This document shows, piece after piece, positions 44,747-48,744 of a stretch of DNA of 64,000 bases. Position numbers and translations under genes: made by a program. The notes under the pieces were generated by a model. That model saw nothing but the letters and a program-made list of their open reading frames with translations. It was not told where the DNA came from and did not search any database. The DNA is from Prauserella salsuginis. Its GTDB lineage: Bacteria > Actinomycetota > Actinomycetes > Mycobacteriales > Pseudonocardiaceae. Location: assembly GCF_024648885.1 (NCBI RefSeq), contig NZ_JANBBF010000009.1, forward strand, positions 868,001 to 932,000, read 5' to 3'. The first letter of the stretch is position 1. The number at the start of each line of letters is the position of its first letter.

Positions 44747-44760
44747 TGAAACATGTTCTA
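44747..44760. promoter_or_regulatory. KstR-type operator before the glycosyltransferase
   Basis: TGAAACATGTTCTA fits TnnAACnnGTTnnA at every defined position. It lies 54 bp upstream of the GT4 start codon (44814) in a 154-bp gap after the mce operon. Confidence 0.75.
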
Positions 44761-44813
44761 GTCTTGCTCGATGATCATGGCGGTCGTCCGGCGGGTGCGG
44801 GTGAGGTGATCGG

Positions 44814-46043
44814 ATGCGTATCGCGTTGTTGTCCTACCGGAGCAAACCGCACTGCGGTGGGCAGGGCGTGTACGTGCGGCACCTCAGCCGCGGACTGTCC
44901 GAACTCGGACACGACGTCGAGGTCCTGTCCGGCCAGCCGTATCCGGACCTCGACGACCCGGGCCGGCTCACGAAAGTGCCGAGTCTCGACCTGTACCGCG
45001 AATCGGATCCGTTCCGCACCCCGCGGCTCGGTGAGTACCGCGACGCGATAGACCTGTTCGAGACCGGCGCCATGTGGACGGCCGGCTTCCCGGAGCCGCT
45101 GACATTCAGTCTGCGCGCCGCGCGGTTGCTGCGGGGCCGAGCGTCCGACTTCGACGTCGTGCACGACAACCAGTGCCTCGGCTACGGCCTGCTCGGCCTG
45201 CAGCGTGCCGGTGTTCCCTTGCTGGCGACGGTTCACCATCCGATCACCAGGGACCGGGTCGCCGACCTGGCCGCGGCGTCGTGGCGGCGCAAGCTCGCGG
45301 TACGCCGCTGGTACGGCTTCGTGACGATGCAGGCGCGGGTGGCCCGGCGCCTTCCGCGGCTGATCACCGTGTCGCAGGCGTCCGCCGGTGACATCGCCGA
45401 GGACTTCCGGGTGGCGCAGGAGCGGCTCACCACGATTCCGCTCGGGGTCGACACGGAGCTGTTCCGCCCCGCCGGGGGCCGGGTTCCGGGCCGCATCGTG
45501 GCCGTGGCCAGTGCCGACGTGCCGTTGAAAGGCGTCCGTCATCTGCTCGAGTCGGTGGCGAAACTCCGGGTCGAACGTGACGTGGAGCTGGTGCTGGTCA
45601 GCAAGCTCGCCGACGACGGTCCGACCCGCAGGCTCATCGACGAACTCGCGATCGGCGACGTCGTGCGCGCGGTGCACGGGCTGGCCGACGACGAGCTCGC
45701 CGGCCTGCTGGCCTCAGCCGAGGTGGCCTGCGTGCCGTCCCTCTACGAGGGGTTCTCGCTGCCGACGGTCGAGGCGATGGCGTGCGGCACGCCGCTGGTG
45801 GTCAGCCGCGCGGGTGCGCTGCCAGAGGTGGTGGGCGACTGCGGCCGGCTCGTGCCGCCCGGCGACACCGAGGCGCTGACGCGGGAACTGGCCACGGTGC
45901 TTGACGACCGGGAGTTACGGGGCCGTCTCGGTGATGCGGGAAGGGCACGAGCCCTCGAACGGTACAGCTGGCGATCGGTCGCTGCGTCCACAGTGGACGT
46001 ATACCGCGAGGTGATCGACCGGACACGGCGAAAGGCGGGGTAG
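44814..46043 (+). CDS. GT4 family glycosyltransferase
   Basis: A retaining glycosyltransferase of 409 residues with the GT-B double Rossmann fold. The N-domain opens with a GGQGVYVRHLSRGLSELGHDV loop; the C-domain has the nucleotide-sugar motif EGFSLPTVEAMACGTPLVVS (E-x7-E at about 311-319). VVHDNQCLGYGLLGL is not a family motif I know. There is no membrane helix. Acceptor and sugar donor are unknown. It is followed at once by a methyltransferase and a toroid-fold protein, suggesting a glycolipid or glycosylated terpenoid. ATG 44814 follows GAGGTGATC. A KstR-type operator is 54 bp upstream. Confidence 0.88.
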   Translation: MRIALLSYRSKPHCGGQGVYVRHLSRGLSELGHDVEVLSGQPYPDLDDPGRLTKVPSLDLYRESDPFRTPRLGEYRDAIDLFETGAMWTAGFPEPLTFSLRAARLLRGRASDFDVVHDNQCLGYGLLGLQRAGVPLLATVHHPITRDRVADLAAASWRRKLAVRRWYGFVTMQARVARRLPRLITVSQASAGDIAEDFRVAQERLTTIPLGVDTELFRPAGGRVPGRIVAVASADVPLKGVRHLLESVAKLRVERDVELVLVSKLADDGPTRRLIDELAIGDVVRAVHGLADDELAGLLASAEVACVPSLYEGFSLPTVEAMACGTPLVVSRAGALPEVVGDCGRLVPPGDTEALTRELATVLDDRELRGRLGDAGRARALERYSWRSVAASTVDVYREVIDRTRRKAG

Positions 46044-46817: not shown

Positions 46818-47892
46818 CGTGCCCGAGGTGCCCGGAGTCCTCGCCGCCGCCGACGTGGCCGCCACAGCCCGGTCGATCGCCGCCGTGCAGGAGGGCTCCG
46901 GTGCCGTTCCGTGGTTTCCCGGTGGCCACACCGACCCGTGGGACCACGTTGAATCCGCCATGGCGTTGACGGCAGCCGGGCTTCGCGACGAGGCCGCGGC
47001 CGCCTACGACTGGTGCCGCCGCACCCAGCGGTCCGACGGATCGTGGCCCGCGAAGGTCGTCGACGGCGGTGTGGGGGACCCGACTACCGACACGAACTTC
47101 TGCGCCTACGTCGCTGTCGGCGTGTGGCACCACCTCACGTGCACCGGGGACGACGAGTTCGCCCGGCGCATGTGGCCGGTCGTGCGGGCCGCCATCGACC
47201 TCGTGCTCGACGCGCAGACCGAACGCGGCGAGGTTGCCTGGGCGCGCGGCGGCGACGGGACATGGGCGAGCGAGGCGCTGCTGTCCGGGTGCGCGAGCAT
47301 CCACCAGAGCCTGCGATGTGCGCTCGCACTGGCCGACCACGTCGAGCGTCCCCAGCCGGACTGGGAGGTCGCGCTCGGGAGACTGGGACACGCCCTGCGG
47401 GCCCACCCCGAGGCGTTCACGGACAAGAGTCGGTATTCGATGGACTGGTACTACCCGGTGCTCGGGGGAGCCGTCCGCGGGCCCGCCGGGCTCGACCGGA
47501 TCCACCGGCGCTGGCCCGAGTTCGTCGTCGACGGGCTCGGTGCGCGGTGTGTCGACGACCGGCCGTGGGTCACCGGGGCGGAGACGTGCGAGCTCGTGCT
47601 TAGCCTGGACGCCGTGGGCGAAGCCGTGCTCGGCAGGGAGTTGCTGGCGGCCATGCAGCATCTGCGGGATCCCGGCGGCTCGTACTGGACCGGCTACGTC
47701 TTCACCGACGGCAAACGCTGGCCGGAGGAGCGGACCACGTGGACCGGTGCGGCCGTGATCCTGGCCGCCGATGCGCTGTCGCGCACCACCCCGGCTTCGG
47801 CGATCTTCCGCGGCGACGGCCTCCCGCTCGGCCTCGCACCCGTCGGCACCGGTTGTGACTGCGACACCTACGTGACCGGCGTTCCCGGCTGA
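46804..47892 (+). CDS. Toroid-fold protein, prenyltransferase/terpene cyclase-like
   Basis: A 362-residue protein predicted to be an alpha/alpha-barrel. It has QW-like repeats ([13 protein letters not shown], and [23 protein letters not shown]) as in squalene-hopene cyclases and protein prenyltransferase beta-subunits, and aromatic or acidic segments [14 protein letters not shown] and [14 protein letters not shown]. The DxDD acid of class II cyclases is not evident. A six-hairpin glycosidase fold is the alternative. Start GTG 46804 follows GGGGG; an in-frame GTG at 46756 is possible. It completes the GT4-methyltransferase trio and converges with the methyltransferase on the other strand, overlapping by 25 bp. 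Confidence 0.7.
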
Positions 47893-48554
47893 CCGTCGAT
47901 CCGGCGCAGCAATCGCATCGAGCCATTCGCCGTGTGTTCGGCGAACTGGCCGGAGGCGAGTGCGCGGCGGAAGATGTGGAACGGCGGGCGGCCGCCGTCG
48001 CGGGGATCGGGGAACACGTCGTGGATGGCCAGCAGTCCGCCCGGTCGCACCCACGGCGCCCAGCCCGCGAGGTCGGCGTCGGCGGCCTCCTCGGTGTGGC
48101 CGCCGTCGATGAACACCAGGTCGGCGGGCGTCCGCCAGAGTGCTGCGACGTCGGGGGAACGGCCGACCACGGCGACGACGTGCTCCTCCAGTCCGGCGCC
48201 GGCGATGGTGCGGCGGAATGCGCCCAGGGTGTCGAGGCGGCCGGTGCCGGGATCGACGAGGCCGGGGTCGTGGTACTCCCAGCCGGGTTGATGTTCCTCG
48301 GAACCGCGGTGGTGATCGACGGTCACGACGCGTGCGCCCGTCTCCCGCGCGGCCGCGCCCAGGAAGACGGTCGACTTGCCGCAGTAACTGCCGATCTCCA
48401 CGGCCACGGGTGTCTCCGTGGCGTCGCCTCGCCGGGCGGCCACCGTCTCGTGCAGGGCGTCGTAGAGGGCGAGTCCCTCGTCGGTGGGCATGAAGCCGGG
48501 TGCCTCGAGCGCGGCGGTCAACAGCTCGGGCGGCATGGCCGTGGCAGCGGGCAT
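47868..48554 (-). CDS. Methyltransf_24-type SAM methyltransferase
   Basis: A 228-residue methyltransferase: [20 protein letters not shown] (motif I, about 50-69), a metal-binding-like [17 protein letters not shown], and [22 protein letters not shown] with [17 protein letters not shown], as in CmcI-like Methyltransf_24 enzymes. The acceptor is unknown. The start ATG 48554 ([12 protein letters not shown]) was chosen because longer frames leave the domain. It converges with the toroid-fold gene and shares the promoter region with the flavoprotein operon, where a KstR-type operator sits. Confidence 0.85.
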
Positions 48555-48744
48555 GCGGGGAACTGTAGGCGCGTGCCACGACGGGCTCAACCGTCGTCTT
48601 TCGAATGCAACACGATGCCGCCCTGTGTGCTGATGACCGTCGCCCGCGCTGTCAGCGACCGTTTTCCGAGCCAGACAATAGTTGAAACATGTTTCAGAAA
48701 TCGGCATCATGTGGAGGCGATCAGCTCGCCGGAAGGAGCCTTCG
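48555..48744. other. Divergent promoter region, methyltransferase / flavoprotein operon
   Basis: 190 bp without coding capacity between two divergent genes. The notable feature is the 14-bp palindrome at 48683-48696, with AT-rich flanks (GACAATAGT before it). GGAAGGAG at 48729-48736 serves the flavoprotein start. Confidence 0.7.
48683..48696. promoter_or_regulatory. KstR-type operator, kstD operon
   Basis: TGAAACATGTTTCA is a perfect palindrome and fits TnnAACnnGTTnnA exactly. It lies 48 bp before the flavoprotein start and could also repress the divergent methyltransferase. Confidence 0.82.

Follow-up and report, generated by a model that had tools for sequence, protein, structure and literature searches.

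KstR-type operators flank a 3-O-methylmannose polysaccharide gene cluster in Prauserella salsuginis and accompany the cluster in related bacteria

The stretch of DNA analysed here, referred to as the window, comprises 64,000 nucleotides of the Prauserella salsuginis genome (contig NZ_JANBBF010000009.1, positions 868,001 to 932,000). The open reading frames confirmed the four-gene layout reported in an earlier note made from the sequence alone. Three genes lie on the forward strand, manT (44814..46043), pmeT3 (46044..46817), which abuts manT, and mmpH (46804..47892), which overlaps pmeT3 by 14 bp, and the fourth, meT1 (47868..48554), lies on the reverse strand and converges with mmpH in a 25-bp overlap. 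An additional upstream GTG is present in the mmpH reading frame at 46756. The placement between mce4 and kstD was likewise found as described, with one extra gene intervening on the kstD side. The upstream neighbour is an mce operon on the forward strand (34266..44659, gene calls), which comprises the yrbE/mce genes along with two associated ones. Two of its proteins were scanned, giving MlaE in 34266-35054 and MlaD/Mce4_CUP1 in 39576-40757, and the operon is read as mce4 from its neighbours. Ahead of it are a FadD17/steroid-CoA-ligase-like gene (25419-27038; NF005897, 687 bits, under the cut-off of 850) and the divergent acyl-CoA dehydrogenase (28238-29542) and alcohol dehydrogenase (29834-30985) genes, both assigned with Pfam and NCBIfam. 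Downstream, a FAD-dependent dehydrogenase gene of the KstD-like superfamily (48745..50349, forward strand; NF005511, 735 bits, cut-off 466, scanned from 48757), the start of which was taken from the sequence, is divergent from meT1 and separates it from kstD, the 3-oxosteroid 1-dehydrogenase gene (50585..52318, forward strand; NF005882, 937 bits, cut-off 788).

On sequence comparison the four genes are the published cluster for the biosynthesis of the 3-O-methylmannose polysaccharide (MMP), manT-pmeT3-mmpH with a convergent meT1, in the same order as MHAS_04402-04405 (PMC9883506). The earlier note had taken them for a new module of no described function. Three of the four proteins align with solved MMP enzymes over nearly their whole length. 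ManT, the GT4 alpha-(1->4)-mannosyltransferase, matched PDB 7qsg over residues 1-404 of 409 (E 3.1e-175), a chain which outranks the next PDB chain by approx. 150 orders of magnitude in E-value, and all four active-site residues checked are conserved in the alignment (H141, K239, E312 and E320, corresponding to H142, K240, E313 and E321 of M. hassiacum ManT). A glycogen-synthase-like or MshA-like GT4 was considered for manT and rejected, as the respective NCBIfam models score far under their cut-offs. The product of meT1 aligns over residues 14-227 of 228 (E 4.9e-79) with PDB 6g7d/6g80/6h40, which we take to be MeT1, the name in the PDB itself being generic; by this match it is a MeT1 orthologue, the MMP 1-O-methyltransferase. 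In case of pMeT3, a class I SAM methyltransferase (Methyltransf_11, E 8.6e-22), the structural relatives are generic only (best E 3.5e-13) and its putative role in the 3-O-methylation of MMP is assigned from the position in the conserved cluster; the function is putative in the original description too (PMC9883506).

The third product, described earlier as a protein of terpenoid-cyclase/prenyltransferase-like fold, is the MMP alpha-endomannosidase MmpH, an (alpha/alpha)6 barrel, as judged from its sequence and its predicted structure. It matched PDB 7qsj with E 2.9e-179 in the profile search and 2.5e-154 as a single sequence, and 7qsj was also the top Foldseek match of the predicted structure (pLDDT 92.7; E 1.1e-48, 66% identity, TM 0.93). 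The catalytic candidates named for this enzyme are Asp47/Asp50 and Glu262 (PMC9883506); D44, D47, E260 and W313 correspond to D47, D50, E262 and W315 of 7qsj, so that all four active-site residues checked are conserved. No Pfam match was found at E 0.001, the NCBIfam amylase/glucosidase models match weakly, and the match to squalene-hopene cyclase in sequence is both short and weak (E 6e-7). The earlier reading is understandable because of this last match, and it is rejected in view of the MmpH match and the fold. The same weak match, together with the steroid neighbourhood and the KstR-type operators, would speak for a new sterol-induced pathway in which a lipid of steroid or terpenoid origin receives sugar and methyl groups, as had been suggested. 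Since the protein is MmpH by sequence, fold and catalytic candidates, ManT and MeT1 match solved MMP enzymes, and 44 of the 54 loci surveyed in the family have no mce neighbours, we regard such a pathway as hardly credible.

The observation that a KstR-type operator is present at both ends of the cluster proved correct. The sites at 44747..44760 (TGAAACATGTTCTA) and 48683..48696 (TGAAACATGTTTCA), both on the forward strand, match the published KstR consensus TnnAACnnGTTnnA exactly. The first precedes the start codon of manT by 67 bp, and manT is the only gene to begin next to it; the second is a perfect palindrome between the divergent meT1 and FAD-dependent dehydrogenase genes and is common to both. 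A third exact match (29661..29674, forward strand; score 24.0) is situated between the divergent acyl-CoA and alcohol dehydrogenase genes. With a weight matrix derived from mycobacterial sites, on which 47 published sites score 13.5-26.6, the two cluster operators score 24.9 and 21.8, respectively. The threshold was set to 13.5, the lowest of the published sites, after a first look at the scores and before the family table was compiled. Three exact matches in the window compare with 0.11 expected and were reached in none of 100 shuffles, and eight one-mismatch matches compare with 3.3 expected and were reached in one of 100; a two-mismatch scan for KstR-like palindromes was too loose to be used (250 matches versus 117 expected). 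Genome-wide, the bare consensus is mildly enriched (20 places versus 14 for the reversed control), therefore the case for the two sites rests on their weight-matrix scores, their conservation and the sequence identity to the operator of kstR.

The genome encodes KstR (NF033703, 332 bits, cut-off 280; E 2.5e-71 to the KstR of PDB 5ua2), with a gene for an acyl-CoA dehydrogenase (PF00441, E 1.9e-23) transcribed divergently from kstR. The operator of this kstR gene and the manT operator have a 17-bp block in common, AAGTGAAACATGTTCTA, which occurs in exact form nowhere else in the genome. In all six cluster-bearing genomes of the genus, i.e. this one and five congeners, the operators are kept, with scores of 15.9-24.9 at manT and 21.8 at meT1; the lowest value belongs to the degenerate manT operator of congener L034 (TGAAACATGTTGTC), which was counted as present. 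Across the same six genomes all 14 columns of the 48683 operator are invariant, versus 59 of 208 flanking columns.

The survey of the Pseudonocardiaceae covered 54 of the 63 family genomes with an MmpH match above 200 bits, and a corresponding phylum table 42 of 65 (both hand counts). The nine genomes left out of the family table were G475, G506, G476, G527, G542, G543, G549, G573 and G591; the match of G591 is in pieces, and the other eight score approx. 409-432 bits, which is closer to the divergent group without operators than to the rest. As upstream region we took the segment from -300 to +20 bp relative to the start, itself extrapolated from the tblastn match. The order manT-pmeT3-mmpH is held wherever these genes were located, and in some relatives meT1 is on the opposite strand, lies some kb away or was not located. 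Among the 46 loci with both mmpH and meT1, 45 have all four genes (G611 is without manT). A KstR-type operator was found in 32 of the 34 such loci from KstR-encoding genomes versus 1 of 12 from genomes without KstR. The Fisher test gives p 7e-8 with phylogeny ignored, and since related genomes are not independent this value is descriptive only. Of the other segments of the same loci, 42 of 2833 contained an operator-scoring site. The two four-gene loci of KstR-encoding genomes below the threshold, G465 and G497, have degenerate operators only (10.0 and 8.7), and the operator was absent from all seven KstR-encoding family loci which have no meT1 nearby.

The steroid neighbourhood is not a general feature of these loci. 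Within approx. 9 kb around mmpH, mce genes were present in just 10 of the 54 family loci and a KstD relative in 8, because of which the idea of a module defined by co-occurrence with mce4 and kstD was rejected. The sterol link proposed earlier is supported as regulation and not as biochemistry: mce neighbours are absent from 25 of the 33 family loci which carry an operator, operator presence tracks that of KstR, and in 18 of the 54 loci the gene divergent from manT is kstR itself. The same three results, along with the position of the 44747 operator beside manT only, argue against the explanation that the MMP cluster merely sits in a steroid locus, its operators being relics or serving the kstD-side gene, and that KstR is without effect on MMP. 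This explanation would fit the fact that the 48683 operator also serves the FAD-dependent dehydrogenase gene, the mild genome-wide enrichment of the consensus, and the result that neither manT nor meT1 has a KstR-type operator in any of the 35 named MMP loci of mycobacteria, the group in which MMP is studied (named loci being the best 80 of at least 587; M. hassiacum is not among the 35). On balance it appears highly unlikely. The operator was also absent from all ten genomes of family f8 (mycobacteria and kin) which have both KstR and MMP. The KstR-MMP link is thus not universal.

In each of the eleven genomes taken to be Streptomyces, manT has a divergent neighbour which encodes a KstR-like TetR protein, and the exact operator string, TGAAACTTGTTCTA, is found a single time per genome, with no match for the reversed control. 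This protein scores 190-202 bits to NF033703, under the cut-off of 280; its operator is nearly identical, and so, without any difference, is the stretch VALGTLYRYFPSK of its DNA-binding domain. These features would allow that the operators of the present cluster are bound by a different KstR-type TetR, which senses fatty acyl-CoA, and not by KstR itself; the KstR-less genome G592, which retains an operator (16.3), and six further genomes of its genus, which retain palindromes scoring 9.0-9.8, point in the same direction. Such a regulator is nevertheless improbable here, since the manT operator equals that of the kstR promoter over 17 bp and 11 of the 12 loci of KstR-less genomes have no operator.

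From the gene identities, the operators, their match to the kstR operator, their conservation and the family-wide association with KstR we infer, with a probability of about 0.84, that the four genes make and recycle MMP and that both transcription units are repressed by KstR in this organism; binding by KstR, induction by sterols and the purpose are all part of this inference. MmpH would cut mature MMP into primers, ManT would lengthen these by alpha-(1->4)-linked mannose units, with GDP-mannose as donor, pMeT3 would probably 3-O-methylate the added units, and MeT1 would cap the reducing end. KstR most likely represses manT-pmeT3-mmpH via 44747-44760 and meT1 via 48683-48696, and derepression would occur when cholesterol-derived acids or CoA thioesters bind to it. 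MMP would then be produced together with the enzymes of sterol import and degradation, and could hold long-chain acyl-CoA or steroid-CoA thioesters. MMP has been proposed to sequester fatty acyl-CoA, and the reported mutant phenotype is slower growth at 15 degrees (PMC9883506). The "trap for intermediates" considered in the earlier note comes close to this proposed role.

The MMP gene set was known already. A KstR operator on MMP genes, here and in related bacteria, was not found in print, nor was any MMP-KstR link, in the open-access literature searched. In its main text the study of the M. smegmatis kstR mutant names no MMP gene among the members of the KstR regulon (PMC1995591), and neither does the main text on an M. 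smegmatis cholesterol transcriptome. In Saccharopolyspora hirsuta cyp125 was induced after 24 h on cholesterol and kstR and mce4 were not; since these two remained uninduced, that transcriptome gives the KstR-MMP link no support. The presence of a repressor answering to cholesterol-derived acids or CoA thioesters at MMP promoters in many genera would hint at when the cell wants MMP, makes the question of its role testable and could help to reveal its purpose. If true, the link would bring the making of a polysaccharide into a regulon associated with the catabolism and uptake of lipids. A more general model can be put forward only tentatively: outside the mycobacteria, MMP might buffer acyl-CoA in the lipid and sterol catabolism of Actinomycetota, where KstR-type repressors sensing acyl- or steroid-CoA, KstR in Pseudonocardiaceae and a dedicated KstR-like repressor in Streptomyces, would switch on a thioester-binding cytoplasmic polysaccharide, the wiring having been lost from, or never present in, mycobacteria. 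Its lack in mycobacteria, if true, would help to explain why the role of MMP stayed unclear there.

Among known systems, the squalene-hopene cyclase superfamily has the alpha/alpha toroid and the short sequence match in common with MmpH, but its Foldseek E-value is 2e-6 versus 1.1e-48 for MmpH, the catalytic candidates of which are present. The GH15/GH125-type (alpha/alpha)6 glycosidases have the same barrel and are structurally related to MmpH, whereas MmpH acts as an endo-enzyme on MMP specifically and is 8-13% identical to them in sequence (PMC9883506). The likeness to the mycobacterial KstR regulon (PMC1995591) extends to the repressor family (NF033703 equivalog), the operator TnnAACnnGTTnnA and a kstR gene divergent from an acyl-CoA dehydrogenase gene; in contrast to that regulon, in the main text on which the MMP genes are unnamed, the MMP genes carry the operator here. 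The M. hassiacum MMP cluster (MHAS_04402-04405, PMC9883506) is built from these four gene families in an identical order and has an MmpH 66% identical in the Foldseek alignment with conserved catalytic residues. Unlike that cluster, the present one lies between an mce operon and kstD, and unlike the MMP loci of the mycobacteria examined it carries a KstR-type operator at both promoters.

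The four genes and two operators placed by the earlier note were all found at exactly those positions in the gene calls and the sequence: manT (44814-46043, plus strand), pmeT3 (46044-46817, plus strand), which abuts manT, mmpH (46804-47892, plus strand), which overlaps pmeT3 by 14 bp, and meT1 (47868-48554, minus strand), with a 25-bp convergent overlap with mmpH. The mce operon is their upstream neighbour, and an FAD-dependent dehydrogenase gene and kstD (NF005882, 937 bits) lie downstream. Directly after the steroid locus a mur (cell-wall) cluster was observed (52651-62342); of five proteins scanned there, four were Mur ligases and one a family 28 glycosyltransferase.

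The toroid-fold protein matched PDB 7qsj, the methylmannose polysaccharide hydrolase MmpH, with E values of 2.9e-179 (18-sequence profile) and 2.5e-154 (single sequence). The terpenoid-cyclase-type fold suggested before for 46804-47892 was not the closest one to the predicted structure (mean pLDDT 92.7); the best Foldseek match was again 7qsj (66% identity, TM 0.93), and the residues put forward as catalytic in M. hassiacum MmpH, D47, D50 and E262, are in register with D44, D47 and E260 here. The minus-strand methyltransferase matched PDB 6g7d/6g80/6h40 (E 4.9e-79), entries with a generic name which we take to be MeT1. The GT4 protein matched PDB 7qsg (E 3.1e-175). This entry is named D-inositol 3-phosphate glycosyltransferase, but was taken as the ManT structure of PMC9883506, because H141, K239, E312 and E320 fall in register with its active-site residues H142, K240, E313 and E321. 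The methyltransferase at 46044-46817 gave generic matches only and is called pMeT3 from its position in the cluster. The four genes almost certainly constitute the 3-O-methylmannose polysaccharide (MMP) biosynthesis cluster. According to the accessible text of PMC9883506, mature MMP is cut into primers by MmpH, the primers are extended by ManT, free reducing ends are capped by MeT1, and pMeT3 is the likely 3-O-methyltransferase; the proposed role of MMP is to sequester newly made fatty acyl-CoA, and growth at 15 degrees was slower in a mutant lacking MmpH. None of these steps needs a steroid or terpenoid substrate, and the modification of a steroid- or terpenoid-derived lipid proposed earlier is not borne out.

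The KstR consensus TnnAACnnGTTnnA, as given in the accessible part of PMC1995591, has three exact matches in the window (29661, 44747 and 48683) versus 0.11 expected. Genome-wide it occurs at 20 places, versus 14 for the reversed control; this enrichment is mild, therefore the consensus by itself is not convincing. With a weight matrix built from 47 published KstR sites, which themselves score 13.5-26.6, the manT site (44747) reached 24.9 and the meT1 site (48683) 21.8. KstR is encoded in this genome (NF033703, 332 bits, cut-off 280; PDB KstR 5ua2, E 2.5e-71), and its divergent neighbour, fadE34-like by position, codes for an acyl-CoA dehydrogenase (PF00441, E 1.9e-23). The kstR and manT operators share AAGTGAAACATGTTCTA, which has no other exact copy in the genome. 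The kstR copy of this 17-mer is exact in 7/7 genomes of the genus searched; the manT copy is exact here and in one congener (G006), carries one mismatch in G002 and two in G003 and G004, and is degenerate in G005. The kstR operator is also present in the congener G001, which has no MmpH match. Across six genomes of the genus, invariant columns made up 14/14 of the meT1-side operator versus 59/208 around it, and 11/14 of the manT operator versus 41/147. Taken on sequence grounds, KstR would directly control the MMP genes in this organism with a probability of about 0.85. Within 29542-34266 no exact operator was present immediately upstream of the mce operon, the nearest upstream being that at 29661; either this operator or a degenerate site may serve the mce genes.

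In the family taken as Pseudonocardiaceae, KstR was above the cut-off in 104/200 genomes, and 54 MMP loci were read, the window included. In 46 of these meT1 is nearby, 45 having all four genes and one (genome G611) lacking manT. Among these 46, an operator scoring at least 13.5 upstream of manT or meT1 was found in 32/34 loci of KstR-encoding genomes versus 1/12 in genomes without KstR (Fisher p 7e-8, relatedness ignored), while 42/2833 same-length windows elsewhere in the same loci reached this score. By hand count, operators are present in 9/10 KstR-encoding genera with meT1 nearby, the exception being g299. Within genus g290 one genome (G456) has KstR and operators and the other (G489) has neither. 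The ten loci of genus g293, where no KstR exceeded the cut-off, contained one operator (16.3), six palindromes scoring 9.0-9.8, as would be expected of relics, and in three cases nothing. The remaining eight family loci, two of them (G021, G022) fragmentary, have no nearby meT1, an mmpH 45-52% identical to that of the window and no operator (0/8); they may represent a different variant, possibly for another methylated mannan or a form without the 1-O-methyl cap. With these added, the counts are 32/41 with KstR versus 1/13 without. In the G611 locus and those of Saccharomonospora halophila and S. iraqiensis, manT is absent between mceF and pmeT3, about 1-2 kb upstream of mmpH, and pmeT3, mmpH, meT1 and the meT1 operator are kept. 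A short C-terminal manT remnant (query residues 370-405, 58% identity) was detected in G611, an assembly 83% complete; manT of its congener G588 is full-length.

Three types of wiring were distinguished. In the first, that of the window's genus, the cluster neighbours mce and kstD genes, with kstR at another place in the genome. The association with mce and kstD on which the earlier note relied is confined to a minority of the family loci, with mce neighbours in 10/54 (genera g1, g25, g299) and a KstD relative in 8/54. In the second (18/54 family loci; g26, g301, g290, g14, and the named Saccharopolyspora loci L066, L081, L083 and L100), kstR is divergent from manT at 147-393 bp, with operators at both manT and meT1. 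In the third, the gene for a KstR-like TetR lies 291-374 bp from manT in divergent orientation in 11/11 MMP loci of genus g56, taken as Streptomyces because the named Streptomyces loci L123, L127, L128 and L132 look the same; an Embleya locus also resembles them. The g56 operator TGAAACTTGTTCTA has one exact copy per genome in 11/11, with no reversed-control match, exact copies only being counted. Five of these TetRs (L164, L165, L168, L123 and Embleya L130) scored 190-202 bits against the KstR model (cut-off 280) and below 50 bits against other families, and share VALGTLYRYFPSK with KstR.

Among the best 80 of at least 587 named loci, 20 had an operator scoring at least 13.5: besides the named loci of the second and third types, Saccharomonospora (2/2), Planotetraspora (2/2), Actinomadura (2/3), Dietzia (3/3, 14.6-19.5) and two Rhodococcus loci (14.5, 15.9). 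None was found in the 35 named mycobacterial loci (top score 12.9, with a matrix made of mycobacterial sites), in the ten genomes with both KstR and MMP that the phylum survey had from family f8 (a group of mycobacteria and their kin; at least one of the ten was taken as Nocardia), or in 21 other phylum-survey loci outside g56. The window's NDMA-type alcohol dehydrogenase gene (29834-30985) has its own KstR-type operator. Relatives of this enzyme (53-56% identity) are encoded near meT1, 2.3-3.4 kb from mmpH, in two Actinomadura (L111, L121) and two Planotetraspora (L129, L131) loci, which have a high-scoring operator upstream of meT1. In the phylum, 65/396 genomes (hand count) have an MmpH homologue above 200 bits, thus the gene is widespread. 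Family f67 (genomes of 1.5-2.2 Mb) has homologues above 390 bits, and is probably outside the groups where MMP has been sought; the published survey, per the accessible text of PMC9883506, covered mycobacteria, eight related species and Hoyosella.

A published link between MMP and KstR was not found among the open-access papers searched, in some cases among the matches listed; as most subscription journals lie outside this scope, novelty is not thereby proven. The four genes are not named in the accessible main text of the M. smegmatis kstR-mutant paper (PMC1995591) or of a cholesterol transcriptome (PMC4881515). In the Saccharopolyspora hirsuta cholesterol transcriptome, kstR and mce4 were not induced at 24 h (accessible text of PMC9782250), therefore that dataset is no test of the idea. 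It is conceivable, if rather unlikely, that more widely KstR-type sensors would switch on MMP as a buffer for acyl-CoA or steroid-CoA. The wiring of the MMP genes to KstR seems new; the cluster itself is already known. The set for which the earlier note knew of no described function corresponds to MHAS_04402-04405 of M. hassiacum (PMC9883506), the same MMP cluster in the same gene order.
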